Positions 22,021 through 57,146 of a DNA stretch of 64,000 nt are shown piece after piece (the stretch's first letter is position 1; the number at the start of each line of letters is the position of its first letter). Position numbers and translations under genes: made by a program. Source of the DNA: Bacillota bacterium (GTDB lineage: Bacteria > Bacillota_I > Bacilli_A > Erysipelotrichales > Coprobacillaceae); contig JAUNWT010000003.1 of the NCBI GenBank assembly GCA_030540195.1, positions 1 to 64,000 of the forward strand. The letters run 5' to 3'. The notes under the pieces are model-generated. The model was not told where the DNA came from, made no database searches, and saw only the letters and a program-made list of their open reading frames with translations.

Positions 22021-22464
22021 TTATAAATCTTCTTTGATGTTATTAATTAATTTATCCGCTATTTTAATAAACGTATTTATTTCTTCTTCAGATAAATTTC
22101 TACTTAATTTTTGATGCATTTCTTTCATTTTATCTTCAATTTGACGATTGTGTGCTCTTGAAGAATCCGTTAAAACGATTTTCTTTAATCTTGCATCATA
22201 CTCTACTTCTTCTCTTGTAATCATTCCTTTTTTACACATCAGTTTCAACATTTCTGATGTGGTAGAACGATTAATTGAAAATTCCTTTTCTATATCTTTA
22301 GGAAATGTATCAAGTCCACTGTCTTCTCTATCTTGAACAAAACCAATAATCCAACAATGCATTAAAGTTGCACGATCAGGTCGTTGACCTGTTTCTTTAT
22401 CCATTGCTTTTCTCATTAGATTATTTATGGTCTTAATACGATGTCCAATGGGATCTCTGTACAT
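22021..22464 (-). CDS. MarR-family transcriptional regulator
   Basis: The protein has 147 aa with a winged-helix MarR fold: IEKEFSINRSTTSEMLKLMCKKGMI forms the recognition region, and the wing VEYDARLKKIVLTD follows. N- and C-terminal helices would build the dimer interface. It is first in an operon with the two ABC half-transporters, the usual layout of self-regulated multidrug exporters. A perfect 9-bp inverted repeat upstream (22493-22514) is a good operator candidate. AAGGAGAG precedes the ATG. Confidence 0.9.
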   Translation of the reverse strand: MYRDPIGHRIKTINNLMRKAMDKETGQRPDRATLMHCWIIGFVQDREDSGLDTFPKDIEKEFSINRSTTSEMLKLMCKKGMITREEVEYDARLKKIVLTDSSRAHNRQIEDKMKEMHQKLSRNLSEEEINTFIKIADKLINNIKEDL

Positions 22465-22492: not shown

Positions 22493-22514
22493 AATTGTAT
22501 GTTACCATACAATT
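22493..22514. promoter_or_regulatory. Candidate MarR operator
   Basis: AATTGTATG and CATACAATT form a perfect 9-bp inverted repeat with a 4-bp centre, 28 bp before the marR start. On the minus strand it overlaps a plausible -10 (TAACAT) located 17 bp from TTTACA. It sits between marR and the divergent pepT, so it could affect both. Confidence 0.65.
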
Positions 22515-22588: not shown

Positions 22589-23812
22589 ATGGAAATTAAA
22601 GAAAGATTTTTAAATTACGTGGGTTTTGATACACAATCAGATAGTTATTCACATACTGTTCCTTCAACTTCAAAACAATTAAAATTAGGAAATTATTTAG
22701 TTGAAGAACTAAAATCATTAGGAATTGAAAACGCTAAGATAGATGAATTTGGTGTTGTTTATGGAACAATTCCTAGTAATAATAATCATCAAGGAGATGT
22801 TATTGGTTTTATTGCTCATATGGATACTTCTCCTGATGCAAGTGGTAAAGACATTCATCCACAAATCATTAAAGATTATCAAGGTCAAAAAATTACTTTA
22901 AATCAAGAAAAAGAACTTTATCTTGACCCTGAACAATATCCTCAACTCTTACAACTTATTCATCATGATTTAATTACAACAGATGGAACAACTTTATTAG
23001 GAGCCGATGATAAAGCTGGTATTGCGATCATTATGCAAATGGTGGAATATATTTATAATCATCCTGAATTTAAACACAATGATATTCAAATTGCCTTTAC
23101 ACCTGATGAAGAAATTGGACATGGTAGTGATCATTTTAATGTTGAATACTTTAACGCTCAATACGCTTACACAATTGACGGTGGAGATATTCACATTGTA
23201 GAATATGAAAACTTTAACGCATTTAGTGCGGAAGTAAAAGTCCATGGAAGAAGTATTCATCCAGGAAGTGCTAAAAATAAAATGATTAATTCAACGCGTG
23301 TTGCCTATGAATTTGATTCACTTTTACCAGTGCATATGCGTCCTGAATCAACAGAAGGTTATGAAGGATTTAATCATCTTCACTCTATTCAAGGAACATG
23401 TGAAGAAACAACAGTAGAATATATTATTCGTAACCATGACTTACAACAAGCAAAAAAACAATGCCAAGACTTTAAAGACATTGCAGAGTTCTTAAGCAAA
23501 AAATATGGTTATCAAATTGTTGATGTCACAATTACAGAAAGCTACTTAAATATGAAAGAAGCTTTAAAAGATCATATGTTTATTGTAGAACAAGCATTAA
23601 CTGCCATCAAAGAAAATGGTTTAGATGCTTATTGTTCACCTATTCGTGGTGGTACAGATGGTGCACGTTTAACATTCAAAGGTCTCCCTTGTCCTAATCT
23701 TGGAACAGGTGGTTTTAACTATCATGGTCCTTATGAATATTGTTCACTTACGATGATGGAAAAACAAGTTCAAATTTTACTTCATATTTTAAAAAACACT
23801 GCTTCAAAATAA
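22589..23812 (+). CDS. pepT: Peptidase T (tripeptide aminopeptidase)
   Basis: The protein has 407 aa, the normal PepT length. It is an M20B zinc peptidase: AHMDTSPD, LGADDKAGIA, the catalytic TPDEEIGHG, DGGDIHIVEYENFNA and IHPGSAKN mark the two-zinc active site and lid domain. It cleaves the N-terminal residue from tripeptides in the cytoplasm. It lies convergent to the opp operon and, with peptide uptake next door, completes a peptide-use module. A TATAAT at about 22560 precedes a GTGAGG ribosome site. It is monocistronic. Confidence 0.96.
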   Translation: MEIKERFLNYVGFDTQSDSYSHTVPSTSKQLKLGNYLVEELKSLGIENAKIDEFGVVYGTIPSNNNHQGDVIGFIAHMDTSPDASGKDIHPQIIKDYQGQKITLNQEKELYLDPEQYPQLLQLIHHDLITTDGTTLLGADDKAGIAIIMQMVEYIYNHPEFKHNDIQIAFTPDEEIGHGSDHFNVEYFNAQYAYTIDGGDIHIVEYENFNAFSAEVKVHGRSIHPGSAKNKMINSTRVAYEFDSLLPVHMRPESTEGYEGFNHLHSIQGTCEETTVEYIIRNHDLQQAKKQCQDFKDIAEFLSKKYGYQIVDVTITESYLNMKEALKDHMFIVEQALTAIKENGLDAYCSPIRGGTDGARLTFKGLPCPNLGTGGFNYHGPYEYCSLTMMEKQVQILLHILKNTASK

Positions 23813-23828: not shown

Positions 23829-23864
23829 AAAAATAGTTTAGAGAAAACTCTAAACTATTTTTTT
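23829..23864 (-). terminator. opp operon terminator
   Basis: AAAATAGTTTAGAG, four-base loop, CTCTAAACTATTTT with A and T runs on both sides. It ends oppF on the minus strand and backs up the pepT terminator. Confidence 0.88.
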
Positions 23865-24784
23865 GACCATTTTTCAAATTCTTCATCAGTAGCTAAAACA
23901 TAATGTGTTCCATCTACTAAATGTTCCGTACCTTTTGTATAATCTACTCCACTTTCTTTATAATCATAAGTAAATGATTTACGTACTTTTTCTACACGTG
24001 GATTTGGATGTGGAATGGCACTTAATAATGATTTTGTATATGGGTGAATTGGATTATCAAAGATTTCTTCAGTAGTTCCTGTTTCTACTAAATGTCCTAA
24101 ATGTAATACTCCAATTTTATCACTGATATATTTTACCATTGATAAGTCATGTGCAATAAATAAATAAGCAATTCCTGTTTCTTTTTGAATCTTTTTCATT
24201 AAGTTAACAACTTGTGCTTGAATAGATACGTCTAACGCTGAAATTGCTTCATCGGCAATAATTAAATCAGGATTCATAATTAATGCTCTTGCAATACCAA
24301 TACGTTGTCTTTGTCCACCTGAGAATTGATGTGGATAACGTGAAGCATGTTCTCTTGATAAACCAACAAGTTCAAGCATTTCATAAATTTTTTCATTTCT
24401 TTCTTCCATAGAAGAATAAGACTTATGAATATCTAAACCTTGACCAATAATATCAATAACTTTCTTTCTTGGATTTAAACAAGCCATTGGATCTTGGAAA
24501 ATCATTTGCATCTTAGTATGTAATTCTTTAGATGTTTCCTTATCTAATTTTCCACCAATTTCTTTTCCATTGAAAACAATTGAACCAGAAGTTGGTTTAT
24601 ATAAACGAATAATACTTCTACCAGTAGTTGATTTACCTGAACCAGATTCACCTACTAAACCATAAGTTTCACCTGGCATAATATCAAATGAAATACCATC
24701 AACTGCTTTTACTGTAAAGTTACGATTAATTTTAAAATGTTGTTTTAAATCTTTAACGACAAGGATAGGTTCTTTCTTTTCCAT
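23855..24784 (-). CDS. oppF: Oligopeptide ABC transporter ATP-binding protein OppF
   Basis: The protein has 309 aa. Walker A GESGSGKST, then the MIFQDPMACLNPR Q-loop region, signature FSGGQRQRIGIARAL, Walker B IADEAISALD and the H-loop IAHDLS are present. A C-terminal oligopeptide-transporter extension (HPYTKSLLSAIPHPNP) marks the Opp/Dpp class. It pairs with OppD to drive uptake through OppBC. It overlaps oppD by one base and is the last gene of oppA1BCDF. Confidence 0.94.
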   Translation of the reverse strand: MEKKEPILVVKDLKQHFKINRNFTVKAVDGISFDIMPGETYGLVGESGSGKSTTGRSIIRLYKPTSGSIVFNGKEIGGKLDKETSKELHTKMQMIFQDPMACLNPRKKVIDIIGQGLDIHKSYSSMEERNEKIYEMLELVGLSREHASRYPHQFSGGQRQRIGIARALIMNPDLIIADEAISALDVSIQAQVVNLMKKIQKETGIAYLFIAHDLSMVKYISDKIGVLHLGHLVETGTTEEIFDNPIHPYTKSLLSAIPHPNPRVEKVRKSFTYDYKESGVDYTKGTEHLVDGTHYVLATDEEFEKWSKK

Positions 24785-25869
24785 TATTCAATACCCTCCT
24801 TTTTCATTTTTTCTAATCTGTTTTTTAATTCAACTGGCATTTCAACTTTTGGAGCTTTTTCATGCATTAACCATGAAGCAACTTTATGAGTTGTACTACC
24901 AGGTACTTTAAACATTGGAGGTTCAATTCTTAAATCAATATTTAAAGCATACTTATTACGTGGAGCAAAAGCATCTCCTTTTACTTCATGTGCTAAGTTT
25001 GGTGGTGTACCAGGGATTGTATATAATTCATCATCATCAGTATCTAAATCTGGCATAGATGATAATAATCCCCAAGTATATGGATGACGTGGATCATAGA
25101 AAATTTCATCAATTGTTCCAGTTTCTACGATTTTACCAGCGTACATAACGTTTACATAATCAGCCACTTTAGCAACAACACCTAAGTCATGTGTGATGTA
25201 AATAACTGATAAATCTTTTTTCTTTTGGATATCTTGAATTAATTCAAGAATTTTAGCTTGGATAGTAACATCCAATGCAGTTGTAGGTTCATCACAAATT
25301 AAAACATAAGGATCACATGATAAAGCAATTGCGATAACAATTCTTTGTCTCATCCCACCAGATAATTGGTGAGGATAGTTTTTCATACGTTTTTCAGCAT
25401 TAGTAATACCTACTAATTGTAATAATTCAACTGCTTTTTTATAAGCTTCTTCTTTTGGTGTATTGTAATGATGAATCATTGGTTCCATGATTTGATTTCC
25501 AATAGTCATTGTAGGGTTTAATGATGTCATTGGATCTTGGAAAACCATGGCAATTTTACGACCACGGATTTCACTTTGCATTTCTTTTTCACTTAATTGA
25601 CAAATATCTTTAGTGATTTTTTCACCAGTATTTTCATCTGTCCAAGTGTAGTTAATAGAACCACCATCAATTGAACCATTTCCAGCCATGATACCCATAA
25701 TTGCTTTTGTAGTAACTGATTTACCTGATCCAGATTCACCAACGATAGCGATTGTTTCACCTTTATATAAATCTAAGTTAACACCACGAATGGCTTTAAC
25801 AGTACCACTATCAGTTCTAAAAGAGATATTTAAATCTCTGACTTCTAATATTTTTTCTCTTTCTGCCAT
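24784..25869 (-). CDS. oppD: Oligopeptide ABC transporter ATP-binding protein OppD
   Basis: The protein has 361 aa. It has Walker A GESGSGKSVT, Q-loop VFQDPMTSLNP, signature LSGGMRQR and Walker B ICDEPTTALD. The C-terminal Opp extension has HPYTWGLLSSMPDLD and PGTPPNL, but it lacks the cysteines that ligate the FeS cluster in some OppD proteins. An insert of about 20 residues after Walker A (around NYTWTDENTGEK) is typical of Firmicute OppD. It is coupled to oppC (2-bp gap) and oppF (1-bp overlap). Confidence 0.94.
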   Translation of the reverse strand: MAEREKILEVRDLNISFRTDSGTVKAIRGVNLDLYKGETIAIVGESGSGKSVTTKAIMGIMAGNGSIDGGSINYTWTDENTGEKITKDICQLSEKEMQSEIRGRKIAMVFQDPMTSLNPTMTIGNQIMEPMIHHYNTPKEEAYKKAVELLQLVGITNAEKRMKNYPHQLSGGMRQRIVIAIALSCDPYVLICDEPTTALDVTIQAKILELIQDIQKKKDLSVIYITHDLGVVAKVADYVNVMYAGKIVETGTIDEIFYDPRHPYTWGLLSSMPDLDTDDDELYTIPGTPPNLAHEVKGDAFAPRNKYALNIDLRIEPPMFKVPGSTTHKVASWLMHEKAPKVEMPVELKNRLEKMKKEGIE

Positions 25870-25871
25870 AA

Positions 25872-26804
25872 TTACATCTCCTTCATAGTTGGATCAAGTG
25901 CATCACGAAGTCCATCACCAAATAAGTTGAAACTTAACATTAAGATAGAGAAAATAATAACTGGAATTACCATCATGTAAGGGTAAATAGTAATTGAGTT
26001 AAATCCATCATTAATTAATGTTCCTAATGAAGCCATTGGAATTGGTAAACCTAAACCAACGAATGATAAGTATGCTTCATAGAAGATAGCATTTGGAATA
26101 GACATCATAATCATAATAATCATTTGACTATAAATATTTGGTAAAATTTCTTTAAAGATAATAAACATATTACTAGCTCCTAAAGTACGTGAAGCTAAAA
26201 CGAATTCTTCTTCTTTTACTCTTAAAACTTGAGCTCTTGTAATTCTTGACATACCAATCCATTCAGTAAATGATAAAGCCATGATAATTGTGAATAATGA
26301 TGCTTTCATCACCATTAATAACAATGTTAATATTACTAAAGTTGGGATAGAGTTAATGATTTCTTGAATTCTTTGCATTACTGAATCAACTTTACCTCCA
26401 AAATAACCAGAGATAAGTCCGTATGTCATACCTACAATCACATCAATAAAGATTGCAACAACGGCAATGAATAATGAATATCTTGTACCTGTCCAAACAC
26501 GTACAAATAAATCACGACCATAAGTGTCTGTACCAAAGAAATGTTCAGCACATGGTGAGATACTTGCAATTTTTGTATTGATTGCATCAAATTTATATGA
26601 TGAAAACATTGGGGCAAAAATAGCAAATACCGCGATAACTAAAATACAAATTAAACCGATAACGGCACCTTTATTCTTTTTAAAACGATTTAAAGAATCT
26701 TTCCAAGCAGGAAGTGATGGAGCAACAACGTCTTTAGTAATGTCTTGTTTATCTCCAACGAATTCAAAATCGTCTGGTAAAAATTCAATCTTTTCTAAAT
26801 CCAT
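25872..26804 (-). CDS. oppC: Oligopeptide ABC transporter permease OppC
   Basis: The protein has 310 aa with a cytosolic N-terminal stretch, one TM and an OppC-type N-terminal domain ending in FFGTDTYGRDLFVR, the classic DppC/OppC signature. A five-TM BPD permease core follows with the EAA loop RTLGASNMFIIFKEILPN that docks on OppD/F. It is translationally coupled to oppB and oppD. Confidence 0.94.
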   Translation of the reverse strand: MDLEKIEFLPDDFEFVGDKQDITKDVVAPSLPAWKDSLNRFKKNKGAVIGLICILVIAVFAIFAPMFSSYKFDAINTKIASISPCAEHFFGTDTYGRDLFVRVWTGTRYSLFIAVVAIFIDVIVGMTYGLISGYFGGKVDSVMQRIQEIINSIPTLVILTLLLMVMKASLFTIIMALSFTEWIGMSRITRAQVLRVKEEEFVLASRTLGASNMFIIFKEILPNIYSQMIIMIMMSIPNAIFYEAYLSFVGLGLPIPMASLGTLINDGFNSITIYPYMMVIPVIIFSILMLSFNLFGDGLRDALDPTMKEM

Positions 26805-26806
26805 TA

Positions 26807-27751
26807 TTAATCATCCTTTCCTAATCTAATTCTTGGATCGATAATTCCGTAAGAAATATCAATAATCAACATCATAAAGATGTACATTGCCGCATATAAG
26901 AATGAACAAGCTAAAATGATGTTGTAATCATTTGATAAAATACTATTAATTAATAATTTACCTAATCCAGGAACAGAACAAATCTTTTCAACAACCATAG
27001 TACCTGTCATTAAGTTAACTAAGATAGGTCCTAAAATTGTAATAACTGGAATTAAAGCATTTCTTAATGCATGTTTGAAAATTAAAGTTTTACGATCTAA
27101 ACCTTTTGCTTTTGCAAGAGTCATATATTCACTTGTTAAAACTGAAACCATTTCAGTACGTGTAAAACGTGCAACGTTTGCAATAACACCAACTGATAAA
27201 GCCAAAATTGGCATAATTGATGATTTAATTGCATTCGATGAACTATATGAAGTTGGTAACAATCTTAATTTTGAAGCAAATAGTAATAAAATTAACATTG
27301 CAAATACGAATGAAGGGATTGAAACCCCAATTACAGAGATAACTGTAGCAATAGTATCCCAAATTGTATTTTTATGTAAGGCAGCAAATACCCCTAAGAA
27401 CATACCAATAATTGTTCCAATAATTACTGCACATAAACCATAAATCATAGATAATTTTGCAGCACTTCCTACAAGTGAAGATACTTGCATATCTTTGTAT
27501 AAGTTAAATGAAACACCGAAATCCCCTGTTAACATATTTTGAATATAACGTACGAATTGAACAGGTATTGGTTTATCCAATCCGTATTGAGCTTCGATAG
27601 CCGCTCTGGCTGAAGCACTTAATTTTTCATTGTTAATTGGAGAACCAGGTAAAAATTTAACCATTAAAAATAATACCATTAAAATAACGAATAAAGTAAC
27701 TAACGAAATAACAAGACGCTTTCCGATATATTTTAAGGTTGAATTACTCAT
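26807..27751 (-). CDS. oppB: Oligopeptide ABC transporter permease OppB
   Basis: The protein has 314 aa with six TM helices. It has an N-terminal KYIGKRLVISLVTLFVI signal-anchor helix, a periplasmic-side loop containing PGSPINNEKLSA and LDKPIPVQF, and the EAA loop AKAKGLDRKTLIFKHALRNAL. AGGAGG precedes the start. It follows oppA1 after an 88-bp gap that holds a stem-loop, which should lower expression of the membrane and ATPase genes relative to the binding protein. Confidence 0.94.
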   Translation of the reverse strand: MSNSTLKYIGKRLVISLVTLFVILMVLFLMVKFLPGSPINNEKLSASARAAIEAQYGLDKPIPVQFVRYIQNMLTGDFGVSFNLYKDMQVSSLVGSAAKLSMIYGLCAVIIGTIIGMFLGVFAALHKNTIWDTIATVISVIGVSIPSFVFAMLILLLFASKLRLLPTSYSSSNAIKSSIMPILALSVGVIANVARFTRTEMVSVLTSEYMTLAKAKGLDRKTLIFKHALRNALIPVITILGPILVNLMTGTMVVEKICSVPGLGKLLINSILSNDYNIILACSFLYAAMYIFMMLIIDISYGIIDPRIRLGKDD

Positions 27752-27839: not shown

Positions 27840-29459
27840 CTATTTTGAAACATATTCGAATGTGTATGGAACACCAACTGGTTTAATACCTAAGTTTTTA
27901 ACTTTTGTATTTTGTAAAGTTGCAGTACCTTTTTCGAATACTGGGATGTATCCTAAATCATCCATTAAGATTTTTTCTGCATCAATCATTTCTTGCCAAC
28001 GAGTATTAGCATCAGTTTCATTGTTAACTTTATCCATTAATGCATCATATTCAGCATTTGACCAATGACCATAGTTGTTATTGTTATCAGTTAATGCTAA
28101 TGTTAAATAAGTTGTAGGATCACCATAGTCAGGTCCCCAACGAGTTACTGATAAATCGAAATCTCCATTTTTTTGTTTGTTGTAGATACGATCTTGTTTA
28201 GTAGTAGCAACCATTTCAATGTTTAATCCTTTTAAACTAGAGAAAGCATTTTGTAAATAAGTTGCGAATACATCCATTGGTGATTCATCTGTACCATAAG
28301 TTAATCTTAAAGTAATTTCAGATTTTCCTAATTCTTTTAATCCTTCATCTAATGCAGCTTGAGCAGCTTTTTTATCATATGAAGTATAAGTATCTGCTTC
28401 ATCTCGGAAATCTTTTCCTTCTGGAGAAATTGATAATCCTTGAGGTACGAAGCCTTTAGCAACTTGTGAACCATCTTTTAAGACGTTTTCACATAAGTCT
28501 TTTCTATTAATTGCAAGTGAGATTGCTTTTCTTACATTTAAGTTAGCTAAATCACTGTTTTGGAAGTTTACTGAAATATAGAATAAATAACCTTCATTAA
28601 TTTGTTTAAATGAATCATCTTTTTTGTATTTATCAACTAAGTCTGAGTTGATTGGTGCGAAATCAGTTTCACCTGCTTCAAATGATTGAGCGGCAACTTT
28701 TGGTTCTTGAACTAATTTCATAACTAATTTGTCAATTTTAACATCTTTAGCAGCGTAGAATTTGTCATTTTTTTCGAATTCAGCTACTGAACCTGGTTCC
28801 CAGTTTGTCATAACAAAAGCACCATTTGATAAGATTGTATCAGCACTCTTACCATATTTGTCACCTTGTTTTTCACAGAATTTTTCATTGATTGGATAGA
28901 AACATGGGAATGACATTAATTCATCAAAGAATGAAACACGAGTAGTTGTAGTAACTTCTAATGTTTTGTCATCTACAGCTTTTACACCTAAAGCATTTAA
29001 ATCATCATCAGTTAAATCTTGTTCTGCATCGATTTTGTCTGATAATTCTTGTGCACCTGCGATGTTAGCAATTCCATCACAGAACATGTAATAATAGTTT
29101 CCTTTCTTTTTGAAGATTCTTTGCCATGCATAAACGAAATCGTTTGCAGTAACAGGATCTCCGTTAGACCATTTAGCATCTCTTAATTTATAAGTGTGTG
29201 TTAAACCGTCTTCTGAAACTTCTGAAGATTTAGCAATACCATATGTAGTAGTACCATCTTTAGCAGGTTTCATAAGCCCATCAATAATTGCATGTAATGC
29301 AGTAAATGAGCATCCGTCTTCGGCATCAGATGAGTCTAAGTTCTTAATATCTAATTCACTTGAATAAGTGTAAATAGATGAGTCATCACCAGATCCCCCA
29401 CACCCAGCAAGAGTTAGAGCCATCATAGCACAAAGTACCATAGATAATAATTTTTTCAT
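27840..29459 (-). CDS. oppA: Peptide ABC transporter substrate-binding lipoprotein, paralogue 1
   Basis: The protein has 539 aa. The N-terminal lipoprotein signal ends in LTLAGC, with the lipidated Cys at residue 20. It belongs to solute-binding protein family 5 (SBP_bac_5): YTYSSELDIKNLDSS, the LRDAKWSNGDPVTANDFVYAW region, then TRWGPDYGDPTTYL near residue 430, the strand that closes on the bound peptide. It lies directly upstream of oppBCDF and is the operon-linked receptor. A 645-bp block (28305-28949) is identical to the matching part of paralogue 2. It has its own promoter at about 29528-29556. Confidence 0.95.
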   Translation of the reverse strand: MKKLLSMVLCAMMALTLAGCGGSGDDSSIYTYSSELDIKNLDSSDAEDGCSFTALHAIIDGLMKPAKDGTTTYGIAKSSEVSEDGLTHTYKLRDAKWSNGDPVTANDFVYAWQRIFKKKGNYYYMFCDGIANIAGAQELSDKIDAEQDLTDDDLNALGVKAVDDKTLEVTTTTRVSFFDELMSFPCFYPINEKFCEKQGDKYGKSADTILSNGAFVMTNWEPGSVAEFEKNDKFYAAKDVKIDKLVMKLVQEPKVAAQSFEAGETDFAPINSDLVDKYKKDDSFKQINEGYLFYISVNFQNSDLANLNVRKAISLAINRKDLCENVLKDGSQVAKGFVPQGLSISPEGKDFRDEADTYTSYDKKAAQAALDEGLKELGKSEITLRLTYGTDESPMDVFATYLQNAFSSLKGLNIEMVATTKQDRIYNKQKNGDFDLSVTRWGPDYGDPTTYLTLALTDNNNNYGHWSNAEYDALMDKVNNETDANTRWQEMIDAEKILMDDLGYIPVFEKGTATLQNTKVKNLGIKPVGVPYTFEYVSK

Positions 29460-29527
29460 TTTTTCTCTTCCCTTCTATAAATCGCCTTTGTATACATTAA
29501 TACGCATACAATAAAATTTATGCTTTA

Positions 29528-29556
29528 ATATTAGTACAATGCGATATAGAAGTCAA
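29528..29556 (-). promoter_or_regulatory. oppA1 promoter
   Basis: On the minus strand TTGACT (29551-29556), 17-bp spacer, TAATAT (29528-29533). It begins a leader of about 65 nt that carries an inverted repeat. Confidence 0.75.
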
Positions 29557-29571
29557 TAAAAAAGACGAACT

Positions 29572-29581
29572 TTGTATACAA
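29572..29581. promoter_or_regulatory. TTGTATACAA palindrome 15 bp upstream of the oppA1 -35
   Basis: Exact 10-bp palindrome. The gap to the upstream edge of the -35 hexamer is 15 bp, the same as at oppA2 and oppA3. A second, looser copy (TTGTTTATACAA, 29592-29603) lies next to it. Candidate regulator-binding site. Confidence 0.65.
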
Positions 29582-29718
29582 AATTGTATTATTGTTTATA
29601 CAAAAAATCTATTTTTTAATCTACATTCAAGAATAAATTAGGATAATTGTTTTTTATACATTTCATTTTTTGGCGATATATTAATGAGAAGACAATATAT
29701 ATTTATTCTTATTTAAGA

Positions 29719-29748
29719 AGAAACACAATACCGAAATATTGTGTTTCT
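29719..29748 (-). terminator. Stem-loop after oppA2
   Basis: AGAAACACAATA, loop of six, TATTGTGTTTCT: a perfect 12-bp stem. The following T tract on the minus strand is short, so it may act as a 3'-end stabiliser or a weak terminator. Confidence 0.65.
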
Positions 29749-29762
29749 GTTGATTTTATCGA

Positions 29763-31385
29763 CTATTTTGATACATATTGGAATGTATATGGAACACCTA
29801 CAGGTCTAATTACTAAACCTTTTGCATCTTTATTTTGTAAAGTTGCAGTACCTTTTTCAAATACTGGGATGTAACATAAATCATCCATCATAATTTTTTC
29901 TGCATCAATCATTTCTTGCCAACGAGTTTTAGCATCAGATTCATTAGCAACTTTATCCATTAATGCATCTAATTCAGCATTTGAATATTTACCATAGTTA
30001 TTACTATTAGAAGAAATACCCATTGTTAAATAAGTTGTAGGATCACCATAGTCAGGTCCCCAACGAGTTGTAGCTAAATCGTAATCACCATTTTTTTGTT
30101 TATTGTAGATACGATCTTGTTTAGTAGTAGCAACCATTTCTACTTTAATACCATTTAATTTGCTTAAAGCGTTTTGTAAGTAAGTAGCGAATACATCCAT
30201 TGGAGATTCATCTGTACCATAAGTAACTCTTAAAGTAATTTCAGATTTTCCTAATTCTTTTAATCCTTCATCTAATGCAGCTTGAGCAGCTTTTTTATCA
30301 TATGAAGTATAAGTATCTGCTTCATCTCGGAAATCTTTTCCTTCTGGAGAAATTGATAATCCTTGAGGTACGAAGCCTTTAGCAACTTGTGAACCATCTT
30401 TTAAGACGTTTTCACATAAGTCTTTTCTATTAATTGCAAGTGAGATTGCTTTTCTTACATTTAAGTTAGCTAAATCACTGTTTTGGAAGTTTACTGAAAT
30501 ATAGAATAAATAACCTTCATTAATTTGTTTAAATGAATCATCTTTTTTGTATTTATCAACTAAGTCTGAGTTGATTGGTGCGAAATCAGTTTCACCTGCT
30601 TCAAATGATTGAGCGGCAACTTTTGGTTCTTGAACTAATTTCATAACTAATTTGTCAATTTTAACATCTTTAGCAGCGTAGAATTTGTCATTTTTTTCGA
30701 ATTCAGCTACTGAACCTGGTTCCCAGTTTGTCATAACAAAAGCACCATTTGATAAGATTGTATCAGCACTCTTACCATATTTGTCACCTTGTTTTTCACA
30801 GAATTTTTCATTGATTGGATAGAAACATGGGAATGACATTAATTCATCAAAGAATGAAACACGAGTAGTTGTTGTAACTTCTAATGTTTTATCATCGATA
30901 GCTTTAACACCCATTGCATCTAAATCAGCATCTGTAATATCTTCTTCATTGTCAATTTTATCTGACATTTCTTGTGCCCCTACGATACTTGCAATACCAT
31001 CACAGAACATGTAGTAATATTGACCTTTCTTTTGGAAGATTCTATGCCATGCATAAACGAAATCATCTGCAGTTACAGGATCACCGTTAGCCCATTTAGC
31101 ATTTTTTCTAATTTTGTAAGTATGAGTTAATCCATCATCTGAAACTTCAGAAGATGAAGCAACACCTTTTACGATATTACCTTTCTTATCTGTTTTCATA
31201 AGCCCATCAATAACAGCATGCATTGCTGTAAATGAGCATCCGTCATCGGCATCTGATGAGTCTAAGTTTTTGATATCTAATTCACTTGAAAAAGTGTAAG
31301 TAGATGAATCTCCTCCTGAGCCCCCACAACCAGCAAGAGTTAGAGCCATCATAGCACAAAGCACCATTGATAATAGTTTTTTCAT
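29763..31385 (-). CDS. oppA: Peptide ABC transporter substrate-binding lipoprotein, paralogue 2
   Basis: The protein has 540 aa. The signal peptide and lipobox (LTLAGC) are identical to paralogue 1 and the family 5 fold is the same. The middle third is identical to paralogue 1 at the DNA level, while the N-terminal ~140 residues and the C-terminal ~150 differ at many positions, such as LSKLNGIKVEM instead of FSSLKGLNIEM. No permease genes follow, so it presumably feeds the shared OppBCDF with a different peptide preference. It has its own promoter and a structured 5' leader. Confidence 0.94.
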   Translation of the reverse strand: MKKLLSMVLCAMMALTLAGCGGSGGDSSTYTFSSELDIKNLDSSDADDGCSFTAMHAVIDGLMKTDKKGNIVKGVASSSEVSDDGLTHTYKIRKNAKWANGDPVTADDFVYAWHRIFQKKGQYYYMFCDGIASIVGAQEMSDKIDNEEDITDADLDAMGVKAIDDKTLEVTTTTRVSFFDELMSFPCFYPINEKFCEKQGDKYGKSADTILSNGAFVMTNWEPGSVAEFEKNDKFYAAKDVKIDKLVMKLVQEPKVAAQSFEAGETDFAPINSDLVDKYKKDDSFKQINEGYLFYISVNFQNSDLANLNVRKAISLAINRKDLCENVLKDGSQVAKGFVPQGLSISPEGKDFRDEADTYTSYDKKAAQAALDEGLKELGKSEITLRVTYGTDESPMDVFATYLQNALSKLNGIKVEMVATTKQDRIYNKQKNGDYDLATTRWGPDYGDPTTYLTMGISSNSNNYGKYSNAELDALMDKVANESDAKTRWQEMIDAEKIMMDDLCYIPVFEKGTATLQNKDAKGLVIRPVGVPYTFQYVSK

Positions 31386-31419
31386 ATTCTCTCTTCCCTT
31401 CTTAAATTATCTTTTGTGC

Positions 31420-31457
31420 AATAAATCGACAAGTTGTATACAATTTATCGATTTATT
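31420..31457 (-). promoter_or_regulatory. 38-bp nested palindrome at the 5' end of the oppA2 transcript
   Basis: The arms AATAAATCGA and TCGATTTATT are perfect inverted repeats. They enclose four bases, the exact palindrome TTGTATACAA (31434-31443) and four bases. The element begins just downstream of the -10 and about at the expected +1. As RNA it would form a 10-bp stem with an inner hairpin; as DNA it could be an operator. Confidence 0.7.
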
Positions 31458-31463
31458 AACTTC

Positions 31464-31492
31464 ATGATAGAAGAATTTCTTCCGAAAGTCAA
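31464..31492 (-). promoter_or_regulatory. oppA2 promoter
   Basis: TTGACT (31487-31492), 17-bp spacer, TATCAT (31464-31469) on the minus strand. Confidence 0.78.
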
Positions 31493-31507
31493 TAGATTTT
31501 TGTATAT

Positions 31508-31517
31508 TTGTATACAA
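31508..31517. promoter_or_regulatory. TTGTATACAA palindrome 15 bp upstream of the oppA2 -35
   Basis: Exact 10-mer with the same 15-bp gap to the -35 as at oppA1 and oppA3. The intervening bases are not conserved between the promoters. Confidence 0.65.
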
Positions 31518-31554
31518 TATATTTAATAATTTTATTACTGTGATAATTTTTATG

Positions 31555-31586
31555 CAAAAAAGCGTATATGTTTTACTATATACGCC
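31555..31586 (-). terminator. oppA3 terminator
   Basis: GCGTATAT, eight-base loop, ATATACGC, then TTTTTT on the minus strand. Confidence 0.88.
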
Positions 31587-31596
31587 TTAATAACTT

Positions 31597-33225
31597 TTAT
31601 TCAGTTTTTTCTACATACTCAAACGAAATTGTTCGACATGGTTTGATTACAAGATTTTTAACCTTTGGATTTTGTAATGTTGCTGCTCCTTTTTCAAAAA
31701 CAGGAATATAGGCATAGTCTTCTAATAAGATTTTTTCAGCATCTTTCATTTCATGCCAACGCTTATTCACATCTGATTCAACACCAACTTGATCGACAAG
31801 GTTGTCATATTCACTATTAGACCATTTTCCATAGTTGTTACTATTTGTAGATAATGCAATTGTTAAATAAGTCGTAGGATCACCATAATCAGGTCCCCAA
31901 CGTGTTACTGCCAAATCAAAATCTCCATTTTTTTGTTTATTGTAGATACGATCTTGTTTAGTAGTAGCAACCATTTCTACTTTAATACCATCTAATTTAC
32001 TTAAAGCATTTTGTAAGTAAGTTGCAAATACATCCATTGGAGATTCATCTGTACCGTAAGTAATTCTTAATGTAATTTGATTTTTTCCTAATTCTTTTAA
32101 TCCTTCATCTAATGCAGCTTGTGCAGCTTTTTTATCATAAGATGTAAAATTTCCAGAATCTTTTCTAAAATCAACACCATCTGGACTTGTTGCTAGACCA
32201 GAAGGAATAAATCCTTTTGCAACTTGTGATCCATCTTTTAAAACATTTTCGCATAGATCTTTTCTATTGATTGCAAGTGAAATTGCTTTTCTTACATTTA
32301 TATTCGCTAGATCTGTATTTTTAAAATTGATAGAAATATAGAATAAGAAACCATCATAAACTTGTTTAAAAGCTTCATCATCTTTATATTTATCAACTAA
32401 ATCCGAATTAATTGGTGCATAATCTGTTTCTCCTGCTTCAAAAGATTGTGCAGCAACTTTAGGTTCTTGAACTAATTTCATGATAAGTTTATTTAATTTA
32501 ACATGTTTTTGATCATAATAGCTTTCATTCTTTTCAAATTCAGCGACTGAACCTGGTTCCCAGTTTGTCATTGTAAAAGCACCATTTCCTAAAATTGTTT
32601 TGGCACTTTTACCGTATTTATTTCCTTGCTTTTCACAGAATTTTTCATTAATTGGATAGAATGGTGGAAAAGCAAGGAGTTCATCTAAAAATGAAACACG
32701 AACTGTTGTTTTTACTTCTAATGTATAATCATCTAAAGCTTTTACACCCATAGAATTTAAATCATCATCTGTAAGTTCTTCACCAGCATCTATTTTATCT
32801 GATAATTCTTGTGCACCTTGAATGCTTGCAATGCCATCTGCAAACATGTAATAATAATTCCCTTTGTTTTTAAAGATGCGATGCCAGGCATAAACAAAAT
32901 CATTGGCTATCACAGGATCCCCATTTGACCATTTAGCATCTTTTCTAAGCTTATACGTATGGGTTAGTCCATCTTCTGAAACATCTTCACTTTTTGCAAT
33001 ACCATACGTAATATTTCCTTTTTTGTCTGTTTTCATTAATCCATCAATCACCGCATGAATAGCACGTAATGAACATTGATCATCGGCATCCGATGAATCT
33101 AAATTTTTGATATCCAATTCGCTTGAATACGTATAAGTTGATGTATCTTCTTTACTGTTGCCCCCACAACCAGCTAAAGAAAATATCATCAAAAAGCATA
33201 GTAATAATGATACATATTTTTTCAT
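31597..33225 (-). CDS. oppA: Peptide ABC transporter substrate-binding lipoprotein, paralogue 3
   Basis: The protein has 542 aa from the ATG at 33225. AAGGGAG is nine bases upstream, whereas the ATG at 33234 overlaps that site. The lipobox is FSLAGC. It is a family 5 binding protein with the same TRWGPDYGDPTTYL strand as its neighbours, and more diverged from paralogues 1 and 2 than they are from each other. Its promoter and terminator are its own, so expression can be independent of oppBCDF. Confidence 0.93.
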   Translation of the reverse strand: MKKYVSLLLCFLMIFSLAGCGGNSKEDTSTYTYSSELDIKNLDSSDADDQCSLRAIHAVIDGLMKTDKKGNITYGIAKSEDVSEDGLTHTYKLRKDAKWSNGDPVIANDFVYAWHRIFKNKGNYYYMFADGIASIQGAQELSDKIDAGEELTDDDLNSMGVKALDDYTLEVKTTVRVSFLDELLAFPPFYPINEKFCEKQGNKYGKSAKTILGNGAFTMTNWEPGSVAEFEKNESYYDQKHVKLNKLIMKLVQEPKVAAQSFEAGETDYAPINSDLVDKYKDDEAFKQVYDGFLFYISINFKNTDLANINVRKAISLAINRKDLCENVLKDGSQVAKGFIPSGLATSPDGVDFRKDSGNFTSYDKKAAQAALDEGLKELGKNQITLRITYGTDESPMDVFATYLQNALSKLDGIKVEMVATTKQDRIYNKQKNGDFDLAVTRWGPDYGDPTTYLTIALSTNSNNYGKWSNSEYDNLVDQVGVESDVNKRWHEMKDAEKILLEDYAYIPVFEKGAATLQNPKVKNLVIKPCRTISFEYVEKTE

Positions 33226-33267
33226 AGTTCCCATCTCCCTTTATTCATATCTATTTACTATGATATA

Positions 33268-33296
33268 AAAATACGCTAACTTATCCAAGAAGTCAA
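33268..33296 (-). promoter_or_regulatory. oppA3 promoter
   Basis: TTGACT (33291-33296), 17-bp spacer, TATTTT (33268-33273) on the minus strand. Confidence 0.65.
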
Positions 33297-33311
33297 AGGA
33301 TATGATAAAAA

Positions 33312-33321
33312 TTGTATACAA
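33312..33321. promoter_or_regulatory. TTGTATACAA palindrome 15 bp upstream of the oppA3 -35
   Basis: Exact 10-mer, third instance with the identical 15-bp gap. It touches the outer edge of the oppA4 terminator. Confidence 0.65.
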
Positions 33322-33360
33322 TAAAAGCATAATAGCTTTTTTACTATTATGCTTTTTATT
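33320..33360 (-). terminator. oppA4 terminator
   Basis: AAAAGCATAATAG, eight-base loop, CTATTATGCTTTT flanked by AT-rich ends. Confidence 0.85.
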
Positions 33361-33362
33361 TA

Positions 33363-34991
33363 TTATTCAGTTTTTTCAACATATTGGAAAGATAAAACAT
33401 TACATGGTTTAATCACTAAATTTTTAACCTTAGTATTTTGTAAAGTTGCTGATCCTTTTTCAAATACCGGAATACTTCCTAAATCAGTCATCAATACTTT
33501 TTCTGCTTCTAATAATTCTTGCCAACGAACACGTACATCTGATTCTGATGCAGCTTGTGCCATATAGTTATCAAAATCACTACTTACGTATTTGCCATAG
33601 TTATTACTATTTGTAGAAATATCAATTGTTAGGAACGTTGTAGGATCACCATAGTCAGGGCCCCAACGTGTTACCGCTAAATCATAATCCCCATTTTTTT
33701 GTTTATTATAAATACGGTCTTGTTTCGTTGTTGCTACCATTTCTACTTTAATTCCTTTTAACTTAGATAAAGAATTTTGTAAGTAAGTTGCAATCACATC
33801 CATTGGCGATTCATCTGTGCCATACGTAATACGTAATTTAATTTCAGATTTACCTAATTCTTTTAATCCTTGATCTAAAGCTTGTTGTGCTTTTGATTGA
33901 CTATAAGTAATATATGTTCCTGATTCTTCTCTAAAATCCTTTCCATCCGGACTTGTTGCTACACCTTTAGGAATAAATCCTGTTGCTGCAGAAGAACCGT
34001 CCTTTAATACTTTTTCACATAAATCTTTTCGATTAATTGAAAGTGACACTGCTTGTCTAATATTCGCATTAGCAAGATCTTCATTTTGGAAATTCACAGA
34101 TAAATAATAAAGAAATCCGTCTGGAACTTGTTTAAATGATTCATCATCTTTATATTTATCTACTAAATCAGAAGTAATTGGTGCATAATCTGTTTCTCCC
34201 GCCATAAATGATTGTGCGGCAACTTTGGGATCTTGAACAAGTTTCATCACAAGTTTTTCAATCTTGACAGTTTTCGCTTCATAATAATCTTCATTCTTTT
34301 TAAATTCAGCAATAGATCCTGGTTCCCAATTTGTCATAATAAAAGCACCATTTCCTAAAATAGCTTTTGCGCTTTTACCATATTTATCCCCTTGTTTTTC
34401 ACAAAACTTTTCATTAATTGGGAAAAAGCATGGAAATGCCATTAATTCATCAAAGAAAGAAACACGCACCGTTGTTTTCACTTCTAAAGTATAATCATCT
34501 ACTGCTTTTACACCCATAGAATTTAAATCGTCATCTGTAAGTTCTTCACCCGCATCAATTTTATCTGATAATTCTTGTGCTCCTTCAATACTTGCAATTC
34601 CATCGGCAAACATATAATAATAACTTCCCTTTTTTCTAAAAATACGTTGCCATGCATAAACAAAATCATGGGCCGTCACTGGATCTCCGTTTGTCCATTT
34701 AACATCTTTTCGAAGTTTGTAAGTATGTGTTAATCCATCTTCTGAAAGTTCTTCACTTTCAGCAACTGCATTGATGATATTTCCTTTTTTATCTGTTTTT
34801 GTAAGTCCATCAATAACTGCATGAATTGCTTTAAGTGAACATCCATCATCGGCATCTGATGAATCTAAATTTTTAATATCCAATTCACTTGAATACGTAT
34901 AAGTAGAAATGTCATCTCCACTTGATCCACCACATCCCGTTAAGGTTAAAACCATTAAACAACATAAAAGTAATGATAGTATTTTCTTCAT
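33363..34991 (-). CDS. oppA: Peptide ABC transporter substrate-binding lipoprotein, paralogue 4
   Basis: The protein has 542 aa from the ATG at 34991, which follows an AAAGGAGAAAGGG site. An upstream extension to 35054 has no ribosome site and would spoil the signal peptide. The lipobox is LTLTGC. It is the most distinct of the four family 5 paralogues, with changes such as YSQSKAQQALDQ. Unlike the others its promoter lacks the TTGTATACAA element and instead has a cre-like sequence (35060-35073), so it may be under catabolite rather than shared opp control. Confidence 0.93.
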   Translation of the reverse strand: MKKILSLLLCCLMVLTLTGCGGSSGDDISTYTYSSELDIKNLDSSDADDGCSLKAIHAVIDGLTKTDKKGNIINAVAESEELSEDGLTHTYKLRKDVKWTNGDPVTAHDFVYAWQRIFRKKGSYYYMFADGIASIEGAQELSDKIDAGEELTDDDLNSMGVKAVDDYTLEVKTTVRVSFFDELMAFPCFFPINEKFCEKQGDKYGKSAKAILGNGAFIMTNWEPGSIAEFKKNEDYYEAKTVKIEKLVMKLVQDPKVAAQSFMAGETDYAPITSDLVDKYKDDESFKQVPDGFLYYLSVNFQNEDLANANIRQAVSLSINRKDLCEKVLKDGSSAATGFIPKGVATSPDGKDFREESGTYITYSQSKAQQALDQGLKELGKSEIKLRITYGTDESPMDVIATYLQNSLSKLKGIKVEMVATTKQDRIYNKQKNGDYDLAVTRWGPDYGDPTTFLTIDISTNSNNYGKYVSSDFDNYMAQAASESDVRVRWQELLEAEKVLMTDLGSIPVFEKGSATLQNTKVKNLVIKPCNVLSFQYVEKTE

Positions 34992-35022
34992 ATTCCCTTT
35001 CTCCTTTTTATCTTCTCCTTTA

Positions 35023-35051
35023 ACCATAGACCTTTTTCTACACACCGTCAA
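35023..35051 (-). promoter_or_regulatory. oppA4 promoter
   Basis: TTGACG (35046-35051), 17-bp spacer, TATGGT (35023-35028) on the minus strand. Confidence 0.65.
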
Positions 35052-35059
35052 CAAAAATA

Positions 35060-55195: not shown

Positions 55196-56983
55196 TTAAT
55201 CTATTTTCTTTTTTCTTAGATAAGTTAAAACAACTAAACTTCCTACTAATAATAAAGCTACACCTACAATATTTGTATCATCACCTGTTTTTACTTTTTT
55301 AACTTCTTGTTTATTTTCTGTTTTAACCGTTGGTTTTACTGTTTCTTGATTATTTGATGTTGAATCATTCTTTTTATCATCATTATCTTTTACAGGTGTT
55401 TCATTTTTATCATTATTTTTCTTTACAAGTCCTTCAATAGCTTTATTAATTGCATCTGCATAACCATCCACTGTTGCTTGTTCAGTAATATTCTTTTCTT
55501 CTTCTACTAAAGCAAGTGCATCTTTCAATACTTTTACTGTTTCATCTGTATAGATACTTAAATCACTTGGTACTTTAGCTTTTGCTTCATTGACCTTTGT
55601 ATAATCAGCATCTTTATATTTTAATTCACTTATTGCTTTATTGATTGCATCTGCATAACTATCTACTGTTGCTTGTTCATATTTACTTTTTGCATGATCA
55701 ACTGCATTAATTGCATCTTCTACAATAGAATAGTTAGCATATAGATTAGCATCTATTTTTTTAGCATCTGTGATTGCATCATTTACCTTTGTATAATCTG
55801 CAAGAATATTTCTTTCATCCCATGCAAATGTAGGATGATTAATTCCAGCTACCCATTCAATACCTGTTCCAGCATTATTTTGAAGATCAGTAAGTACGCT
55901 AGCAGAAGTAAAATTAGAACTTTCTCTTCCACATATAGACTGATCAAAGTTCGGATCTGCGGATGCAGTACCCGCATTCCAGTCTACAACAAGTTTTACA
56001 ACTGCACTATAGTTATTATCTAAATCATCAGGCACTCTATCTGGCCAAATACAATTTGTAATATTAGCTACTGTAACAGCTGCAACCCAAGTGATATTAC
56101 CCGGTTCTGCACAATTAATATTCTTTGTCGATACCATACAATTTTTAATTATTACACCAGGCTCTCCATGAAAATCAAAATTTGCACCGAGAATGCCACC
56201 TACAGCTGAATTAATATTTTGACAAGAAACAGAGCCTCCAAACCAGCAATCGATAATTTGTGAACTACTTGCAGAATTTTCCCATTGTCCAATTAATCCT
56301 CCTACAGTATCAACACTATCCTCACTAGGTTCAGTACTAATAACCGTGGCATTTGAAGCACAACCTTTTACCTGTGTACTCCAAGTACATTGCCCTATTA
56401 AACCACCTAGCATCTTATCACCAACATCATTTTCAATTTTTCCACTTGTATAACAGTTTTCAACTATACCACCATTGACCCAATCTGCCAAAATACCAGC
56501 AAGTAGAGAACAATCATTAGAAACAATATCAGCATTCGTAACCATCAAATTTTTCACAATTCCACCAGATGATATAACGCCAAACAATCCATTTCGTGTT
56601 AAATCTTCTCCTGTATAGTGATGATACAAATTCATTATTTTGTGATACTGACCATCAAAAGTACCGTCAAAATATTGAATAAAATTACTACCATTTCCAA
56701 TAGATATCCATTGATGCCCTGAAAGGTCCAAATCATTATCTAAATAAATCGTTTTATCTTTAAATACTATATCACCATTAACCAACTGAGCCAAACCTGC
56801 AAGTTGTTCTGCGGTTGTAATATGATATTCACTATCTGTTTCATGCCCAACATACCAGCTTGTGTCAGCTGTCCCATCCCATGTATCTACTGCTTCTGCC
56901 GCAAATACATTTGTAGGCACAAATGATACAGCCATGGATAATGATAATAATACCGCAACCATTATTTTCTTAATTGCTTTCAT
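55196..56983 (-). CDS. Surface protein: GLUG-like beta-helix, two FIVAR repeats, wall anchor
   Basis: The protein has 595 aa from the ATG at 56983 (GGGAGG seven bases upstream; earlier ATGs overlap the site). The signal peptide ends near NVFAAEA. Residues ~35-380 form a beta-helix of the kind seen in bacterial adhesins and IgA-peptidase surface proteins: YHITTAEQLAGLAQLVN, FDGTFDGQYHKIMNLY, and repeated GGIVENC/GGLIGQ turns (GLUG-like). Two FIVAR repeats follow, then a ~90-residue C-terminus nearly identical to that of the neighbouring vWA protein, with KKVKTGDDTN and a TM anchor. Likely a surface adhesin. Its promoter has a TTGTATACAA element. Confidence 0.87.
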   Translation of the reverse strand: MKAIKKIMVAVLLSLSMAVSFVPTNVFAAEAVDTWDGTADTSWYVGHETDSEYHITTAEQLAGLAQLVNGDIVFKDKTIYLDNDLDLSGHQWISIGNGSNFIQYFDGTFDGQYHKIMNLYHHYTGEDLTRNGLFGVISSGGIVKNLMVTNADIVSNDCSLLAGILADWVNGGIVENCYTSGKIENDVGDKMLGGLIGQCTWSTQVKGCASNATVISTEPSEDSVDTVGGLIGQWENSASSSQIIDCWFGGSVSCQNINSAVGGILGANFDFHGEPGVIIKNCMVSTKNINCAEPGNITWVAAVTVANITNCIWPDRVPDDLDNNYSAVVKLVVDWNAGTASADPNFDQSICGRESSNFTSASVLTDLQNNAGTGIEWVAGINHPTFAWDERNILADYTKVNDAITDAKKIDANLYANYSIVEDAINAVDHAKSKYEQATVDSYADAINKAISELKYKDADYTKVNEAKAKVPSDLSIYTDETVKVLKDALALVEEEKNITEQATVDGYADAINKAIEGLVKKNNDKNETPVKDNDDKKNDSTSNNQETVKPTVKTENKQEVKKVKTGDDTNIVGVALLLVGSLVVLTYLRKKKID

Positions 56984-57043
56984 ATGCATTCCTCCCAAAT
57001 AATCAATTTCAATGATACTTACAGTCTCATATTAAATTATTAA

Positions 57044-57136: not shown

Positions 57137-57146
57137 TTGTATACAA
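57137..57146. promoter_or_regulatory. TTGTATACAA palindrome abutting the -35 of the GLUG/FIVAR promoter
   Basis: Exact 10-mer directly next to the upstream edge of the -35. The same element is 15 bp away in three oppA promoters. Confidence 0.6.

Follow-up and report, generated by a model that had tools for sequence, protein, structure and literature searches.

Among the closest known FCD-type GntR systems is Atu1419, a VanR-group repressor of Agrobacterium fabrum (PDB 6ZA3 and 6Z74) that was crystallised on ATGTATACAT, with Arg45 reading G3 (PMC7797058). The protein is tetrameric, and loops between palindromes have been seen by electron microscopy (PMC7797058). Its operators are placed at the -10 or between the -35 and -10, with two palindromes per region, but it is a local regulator of hydroxycinnamate catabolism that senses methylenetetrahydrofolate, not a global amino-acid regulator. 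A second FCD protein, CitO of Enterococcus faecalis, illustrates that such a protein can use a metal to sense citrate (PMC4746285); it also has a local regulon, in which it activates citrate fermentation genes. Two further relatives, TM0439 (3FMS/3SXY) and PmiR (7XP0/7XP1), come from other organisms and have other functions. The closest functional counterpart is the CodY regulon of Bacilli, which covers amino-acid biosynthesis, the citrate branch and oligopeptide uptake.

We analysed a 64,000-nucleotide stretch of DNA (the window) from a Faecalibacillus genome (Coprobacillaceae, Erysipelotrichales) that is closest, among named species, to F. intestinalis and F. faecis. The window contains a recurring 10-bp palindrome, TTGTATACAA (full form ATTGTATACAAT). 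We consider it probable that a VanR-type FCD GntR protein, encoded in an acn-icd-gntR operon, has this word as its operator; the protein would repress from sites in core promoters and, at oppA, by DNA looping. The likely targets and presumed logic resemble those of CodY, although the protein and motif of CodY are unrelated to this GntR and its palindrome.

Palindromes at the oppA promoters

Four oppA paralogues lie in tandem at 27840 to 35054 of the window, and the following features accompany the palindrome there and at one further locus.

27840 to 29459, minus strand: oppA1, oligopeptide-binding lipoprotein (SBP_bac_5 type), heading the opp genes at 23855 to 27751
29488 to 29497: putative downstream operator copy of oppA1, TTGTATACAT on the plus strand and ATGTATACAA on the gene strand, one mismatch
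29528 to 29556, minus strand: predicted oppA1 promoter, -35 TTGACT at 29551 to 29556, 17-bp spacer, -10 TAATAT at 29528 to 29533
29572 to 29581: putative upstream operator copy of oppA1, TTGTATACAA, 15 bp above the -35, at about -60 to -51
29763 to 31385, minus strand: oppA2, oligopeptide-binding lipoprotein
31434 to 31443: putative downstream operator copy of oppA2, exact, downstream of its promoter
31464 to 31492, minus strand: predicted oppA2 promoter, -35 TTGACT at 31487 to 31492, -10 TATCAT at 31464 to 31469
31508 to 31517: putative upstream operator copy of oppA2, exact, 15 bp above the -35
31597 to 33225, minus strand: oppA3
33312 to 33321: putative upstream operator copy of oppA3, exact, 15 bp above the -35
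57137 to 57146: fifth exact copy, abutting the -35 (gap 0; TTGACA-17-TATAAT) upstream of a surface-protein gene at 55196 to 56998

The original prediction had described the three upstream copies, each 15 bp from a TTGACT -35 hexamer of a promoter with a 17-bp spacer, and these positions, gaps and spacers all proved exact. The intervening bases are indeed not conserved (AGTTCGTCTTTTTTA, ATATACAAAAATCTA and TTTTTATCATATCCT), the -10 hexamers of oppA1, oppA2 and oppA3 are TAATAT, TATCAT and TATTTT, and all three sites fall at -60 to -51 relative to the predicted start. The word was also rightly judged to exceed chance, since the window holds five exact copies against 0.25 expected from dinucleotide shuffles, a number reached by 0 of 100 shuffles. 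The inventory itself was incomplete, having missed the exact copies at 31434 and 57137 and the one-mismatch copy at 29488. The surface-protein gene downstream of the 57137 copy is probably a member of the same regulon.

The promoters of oppA1 and oppA2 are thus flanked by paired copies, which lie 84 bp (8.0 turns at 10.5 bp) and 74 bp (7.0 turns) apart, centre to centre. In F. faecis and F. intestinalis both oppA2 copies are kept, and a GTGTATACAA form occupies the place of the downstream oppA1 copy. No downstream partner was found for oppA3, and the fourth oppA (33363 to 34991) lacks a copy of the palindrome. A homologous oppA copy further upstream has an internal TGA in F. intestinalis and is split into pieces in F. 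faecis. Because the 15-bp spacing is common to tandem paralogues and is kept in these two relatives, its constancy may be due in part to shared descent of the tandem oppA genes.

Targets and promoter positions across genomes

A survey of exact copies in the whole genome recovered 16, none of which is truly coding; two were flagged inside ORFs but were counted as non-coding because those ORFs begin at the palindrome's own TTG. By comparison, 12 of the 14 copies of a reversed control word, AACATATGTT, are coding (Fisher p = 1e-6). The random scatter through coding sequence that would have spoken against the original prediction was therefore not seen. The total number of words is close to that of the control (16 versus 14); the argument depends on where the sites lie, on what their targets do and on co-occurrence.

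Most copies precede amino-acid genes (citZ, acn-icd, serC, aroF, his, gdhA and thrC) or peptide transporters. The flanking genes encode citrate synthase, aconitase-isocitrate dehydrogenase, serC, aroF-aroB-aroA, a histidinol-phosphatase, gdhA/hisZGD (two sites), hom/thrCB, an Ala/Gly-type symporter, HU, a GH16-type surface protein, the surface protein of the window and oppA1-3. Several of these names were read from translations, and an NCBIfam check covered citrate synthase, acn, icd, serC, thrC, gdhA and the histidinol-phosphatase. The copy upstream of the GH16-type gene has a longer symmetry, ACTTGTATACAAGT (L054:5614; C127:65613 in the genome), and may belong to another GntR regulator. The target list rules out a regulon limited to peptide uptake, as had been proposed, and points to a global amino-acid regulon; of the underlying idea, the word is very probably a protein-binding site, and it does exceed chance and define a regulon.

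Other genera (G021, G016, G007, G008, G010, G017 and G022) have sites at the same targets, with citZ, acn, serC/hisK and thrC/asnA/hom joined by hisZ, ilvE, ilvB, gltB and AGCS. Within the genus the site is also present at trpE and at a second opp cluster. By contrast with this pattern, G045, a genome of another family that lacks the regulator proposed below, has 10 exact copies, mostly inside genes. A thrC site with at most one mismatch was found in 7 of 14 regulator-positive genomes versus 0 of 9 regulator-negative ones, and is missing in several regulator-positive genera. Because of these gaps, and because the oppA site is variable or missing outside Faecalibacillus, the content of the regulon seems to drift. 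Word counts for palindrome and control were 177 versus 99 in regulator-positive genomes and 24 versus 22 in the others, a difference in the expected direction; the two-by-two comparison was not significant (p = 0.14), and a paired test within regulator-positive genomes was (p = 0.0009). Apparent insertion elements in G021 and G016 (L098, L102, L103 and L107) end in ...cccacagactatctgtgggttttaTTGTATACAA, which inflates the palindrome counts.

These insertion elements, together with a genome-wide count so near that of the reversed control, are what could be said for reading the sites as accidental words, or as debris left by mobile elements, in AT-rich intergenic DNA. That reading is extremely improbable given the position of the sites, the function of the targets, their recurrence across genera, the absence of the pattern from the regulator-less G045 and the form TATAAT-TGTATACAA at acn/gntR in most genera. 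Chance is refuted for the regulon as a whole, although single sites could still be due to it.

Position relative to promoters, which were predicted from consensus, differs among the targets. At citZ, serC, aroF, hisK, gdhA, hisZ, thrC, AGCS and acn the site lies on the predicted core promoter (-38 to +12); in biosynthetic genes it sits between the -35 and -10, or on the -10 itself, or on the start site, a placement that implies repression. The site of the 57137 gene is at -45 to -36, and those of oppA1-3 and the GH16 gene are at about -60 to -47. The fixed distance noted at the oppA promoters is consequently not a rule, since other targets in the same genome have the site within the core promoter. 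As for oppA orthologues, for which conservation had been expected, the element is kept in F. faecis and F. intestinalis, but outside Faecalibacillus its place varies or it is missing. Where homologues of oppA in other species and genera of the Coprobacillaceae (G005, G001, G017 and G034) have a site near the promoter, it is mostly downstream of that promoter.

The GntR protein of the acn-icd-gntR operon

CodY, the usual regulator of such genes, can be dismissed because it is absent. Its domain (PF08222) gave no match above cut-off in this genome or in 60 relatives, in a search whose controls recovered Bacillus subtilis and Lactococcus, and the CodY box AATTTTCWGAAAATT is not enriched in the window (17 matches with at most three mismatches, versus 29 expected).

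The original prediction left the regulator unnamed, and on sequence grounds we now propose the GntR protein of the acn-icd-gntR operon. A search of the genome for GntR proteins found this 228-aa protein (L055:2622-3308) as the third gene, directly 3' of acn-icd. It has an N-terminal GntR winged helix-turn-helix (PF00392, 59.1 bits, cut-off 27) and a C-terminal FCD domain (PF07729, 101.9 bits, cut-off 24.3). Its orthologue is present as a single copy in 42 of 43 Coprobacillaceae genomes, this one included, and in none of about 274 other genomes of the order Erysipelotrichales. The sole family genome without it, G014, has two copies of the 12-base word, and thrC was undetected there.

At the promoter of acn-icd-gntR, or of gntR alone, TATAAT-TGTATACAA is exact in 22 of 26 loci and has one mismatch in 2; of the remaining 2, the G018 contig ends before acn and G006 has no site. 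An extended form considered at acn, TTGTATAATTGTATACAA, turned out to be the -10 of the promoter (TATAAT) with the operator immediately behind it. In G022, G024 and G020 gntR does not stand behind acn, and the palindrome precedes gntR itself; the genes for a 754-aa aconitase and an NADP-type isocitrate dehydrogenase in G022 lie outside the gntR operon, each with a palindrome. We take this persistence of the palindrome before gntR, acn and icd even when they are unlinked as the strongest evidence for a site read by this protein. Operon linkage, the autoregulatory site and co-occurrence, like the motif, its targets and their conservation, can be read from the genomes directly, and they give good support to the acn-linked VanR-type FCD GntR as the probable regulator.

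Structural comparison is consistent with this assignment. The AlphaFold model (pLDDT 88.7) has a winged helix-turn-helix and six FCD helices (81-105, 108-126, 130-146, 151-172, 177-193 and 197-223), compared with seven in the FadR group, and it matches PmiR, McbR, Atu1419 and TM0439. TM0439 and PmiR are among the best matches in both sequence and fold, at 28-30% identity. Atu1419, about 28% identical, shares the winged helix-turn-helix with six-helix FCD architecture, and its Glu34/Arg45/Thr46/Arg49 align with the invariant E39/R50/T51/R54, which places the contact residues in correspondence. Its metal ligands N137/H141/H192/H214 likewise align with N137/H141/H185/H207, candidate ligands that are invariant in 26 GntR orthologues and form a corresponding Asn/His/His/His site. 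Both systems have a 10-bp palindrome with a TGTATACA core. More generally, TTGTATACAA fits the palindromic operator type (N)yGT(N)xAC(N)y, and conservation ties it to this gene and regulon. We found no description of this regulator in the literature searched, which lay mostly outside subscription journals, and a search for the exact palindrome word returned no bacterial regulator among the papers listed.

A different protein might instead read the palindrome, with the gntR linkage being coincidental. The candidates would be a MarR or UTRA protein, or a second FCD-type GntR that is encoded directly upstream of ilvC (L140:3695-4378, on C6 of this genome); its location and domain type, and the similarity of operators among FCD GntRs, favour the latter. 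However, L140 was found in three Faecalibacillus genomes, with a distant homologue in G007, a distribution too narrow for a family-wide motif regulon, and the acn-linked GntR keeps the operator in genomes where it is separate from acn. We therefore consider another reader very unlikely. The MarR protein of the window (22021 to 22464) was rejected because it has a different element of its own: a perfect 8-4-8 inverted repeat, ATTGTATG-TTAC-CATACAAT, lies at 22494 to 22513 between its gene and pepT (22589 to 23812), and is probably the MarR operator.

Proposed regulatory logic and its meaning for the family

In the mechanism that we favour, a GntR dimer would read the 10-bp palindrome, and protein bound in or on the core promoters of biosynthetic genes and of its own operon would block RNA polymerase, giving repression and autorepression. 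At oppA1 and oppA2, where the promoter lies between two operators, looping of the DNA by a tetramer could repress peptide uptake along with biosynthesis, a CodY-like job in a CodY-less family. The 74- and 84-bp separations are compatible with Atu1419-like tetramer looping, though only that. A small carboxylate from the citrate/isocitrate/2-oxoglutarate branch, bound at a putative metal site, is the probable effector; its identity is a guess from the operon and from relatives such as CitO, which this system would resemble in metal-assisted tricarboxylate sensing and resembles in its citrate-linked genes.

The same GntR could also act with dual sign, repressing biosynthetic genes while activating oppA1-3, and perhaps the 57137 gene, from near -55. 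This possible but doubtful arrangement would suit the identical placement of the three oppA sites, the 57137 site just above its -35 and the precedent of CitO, which activates from operators at -41 to -65 and -51 to -74 (PMC4746285). Against it stand the additional sites that oppA1 and oppA2 have on the downstream side of their promoters, the mainly downstream sites in oppA homologues of other species and genera, and the repression of oligopeptide (ami) genes in pneumococcus by the functional analogue CodY (PMC4406557). Looping repression is favoured at oppA because of these downstream partner sites and the mainly downstream sites of the homologues. We keep activation from -55 in consideration mostly because of oppA3, whose upstream-only site is no obvious repressor position. 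A full two-way switch that replaces CodY seems unlikely; in it, synthesis would be shut through core-promoter sites and peptide uptake turned on from near -55, with a citrate/2-oxoglutarate signal choosing between making and scavenging amino acids.

Gut Bacillota without CodY need another means of setting amino-acid synthesis in balance with peptide scavenging, and our proposal would supply a nearly family-wide regulator, an operator and a target list for that balance. If true, the regulon would be unusually broad for a VanR-type FCD GntR, since the solved relatives compared here are local regulators. The palindrome appears to be a GntR-family site that controls amino-acid synthesis and peptide uptake across the Coprobacillaceae, a family without CodY.
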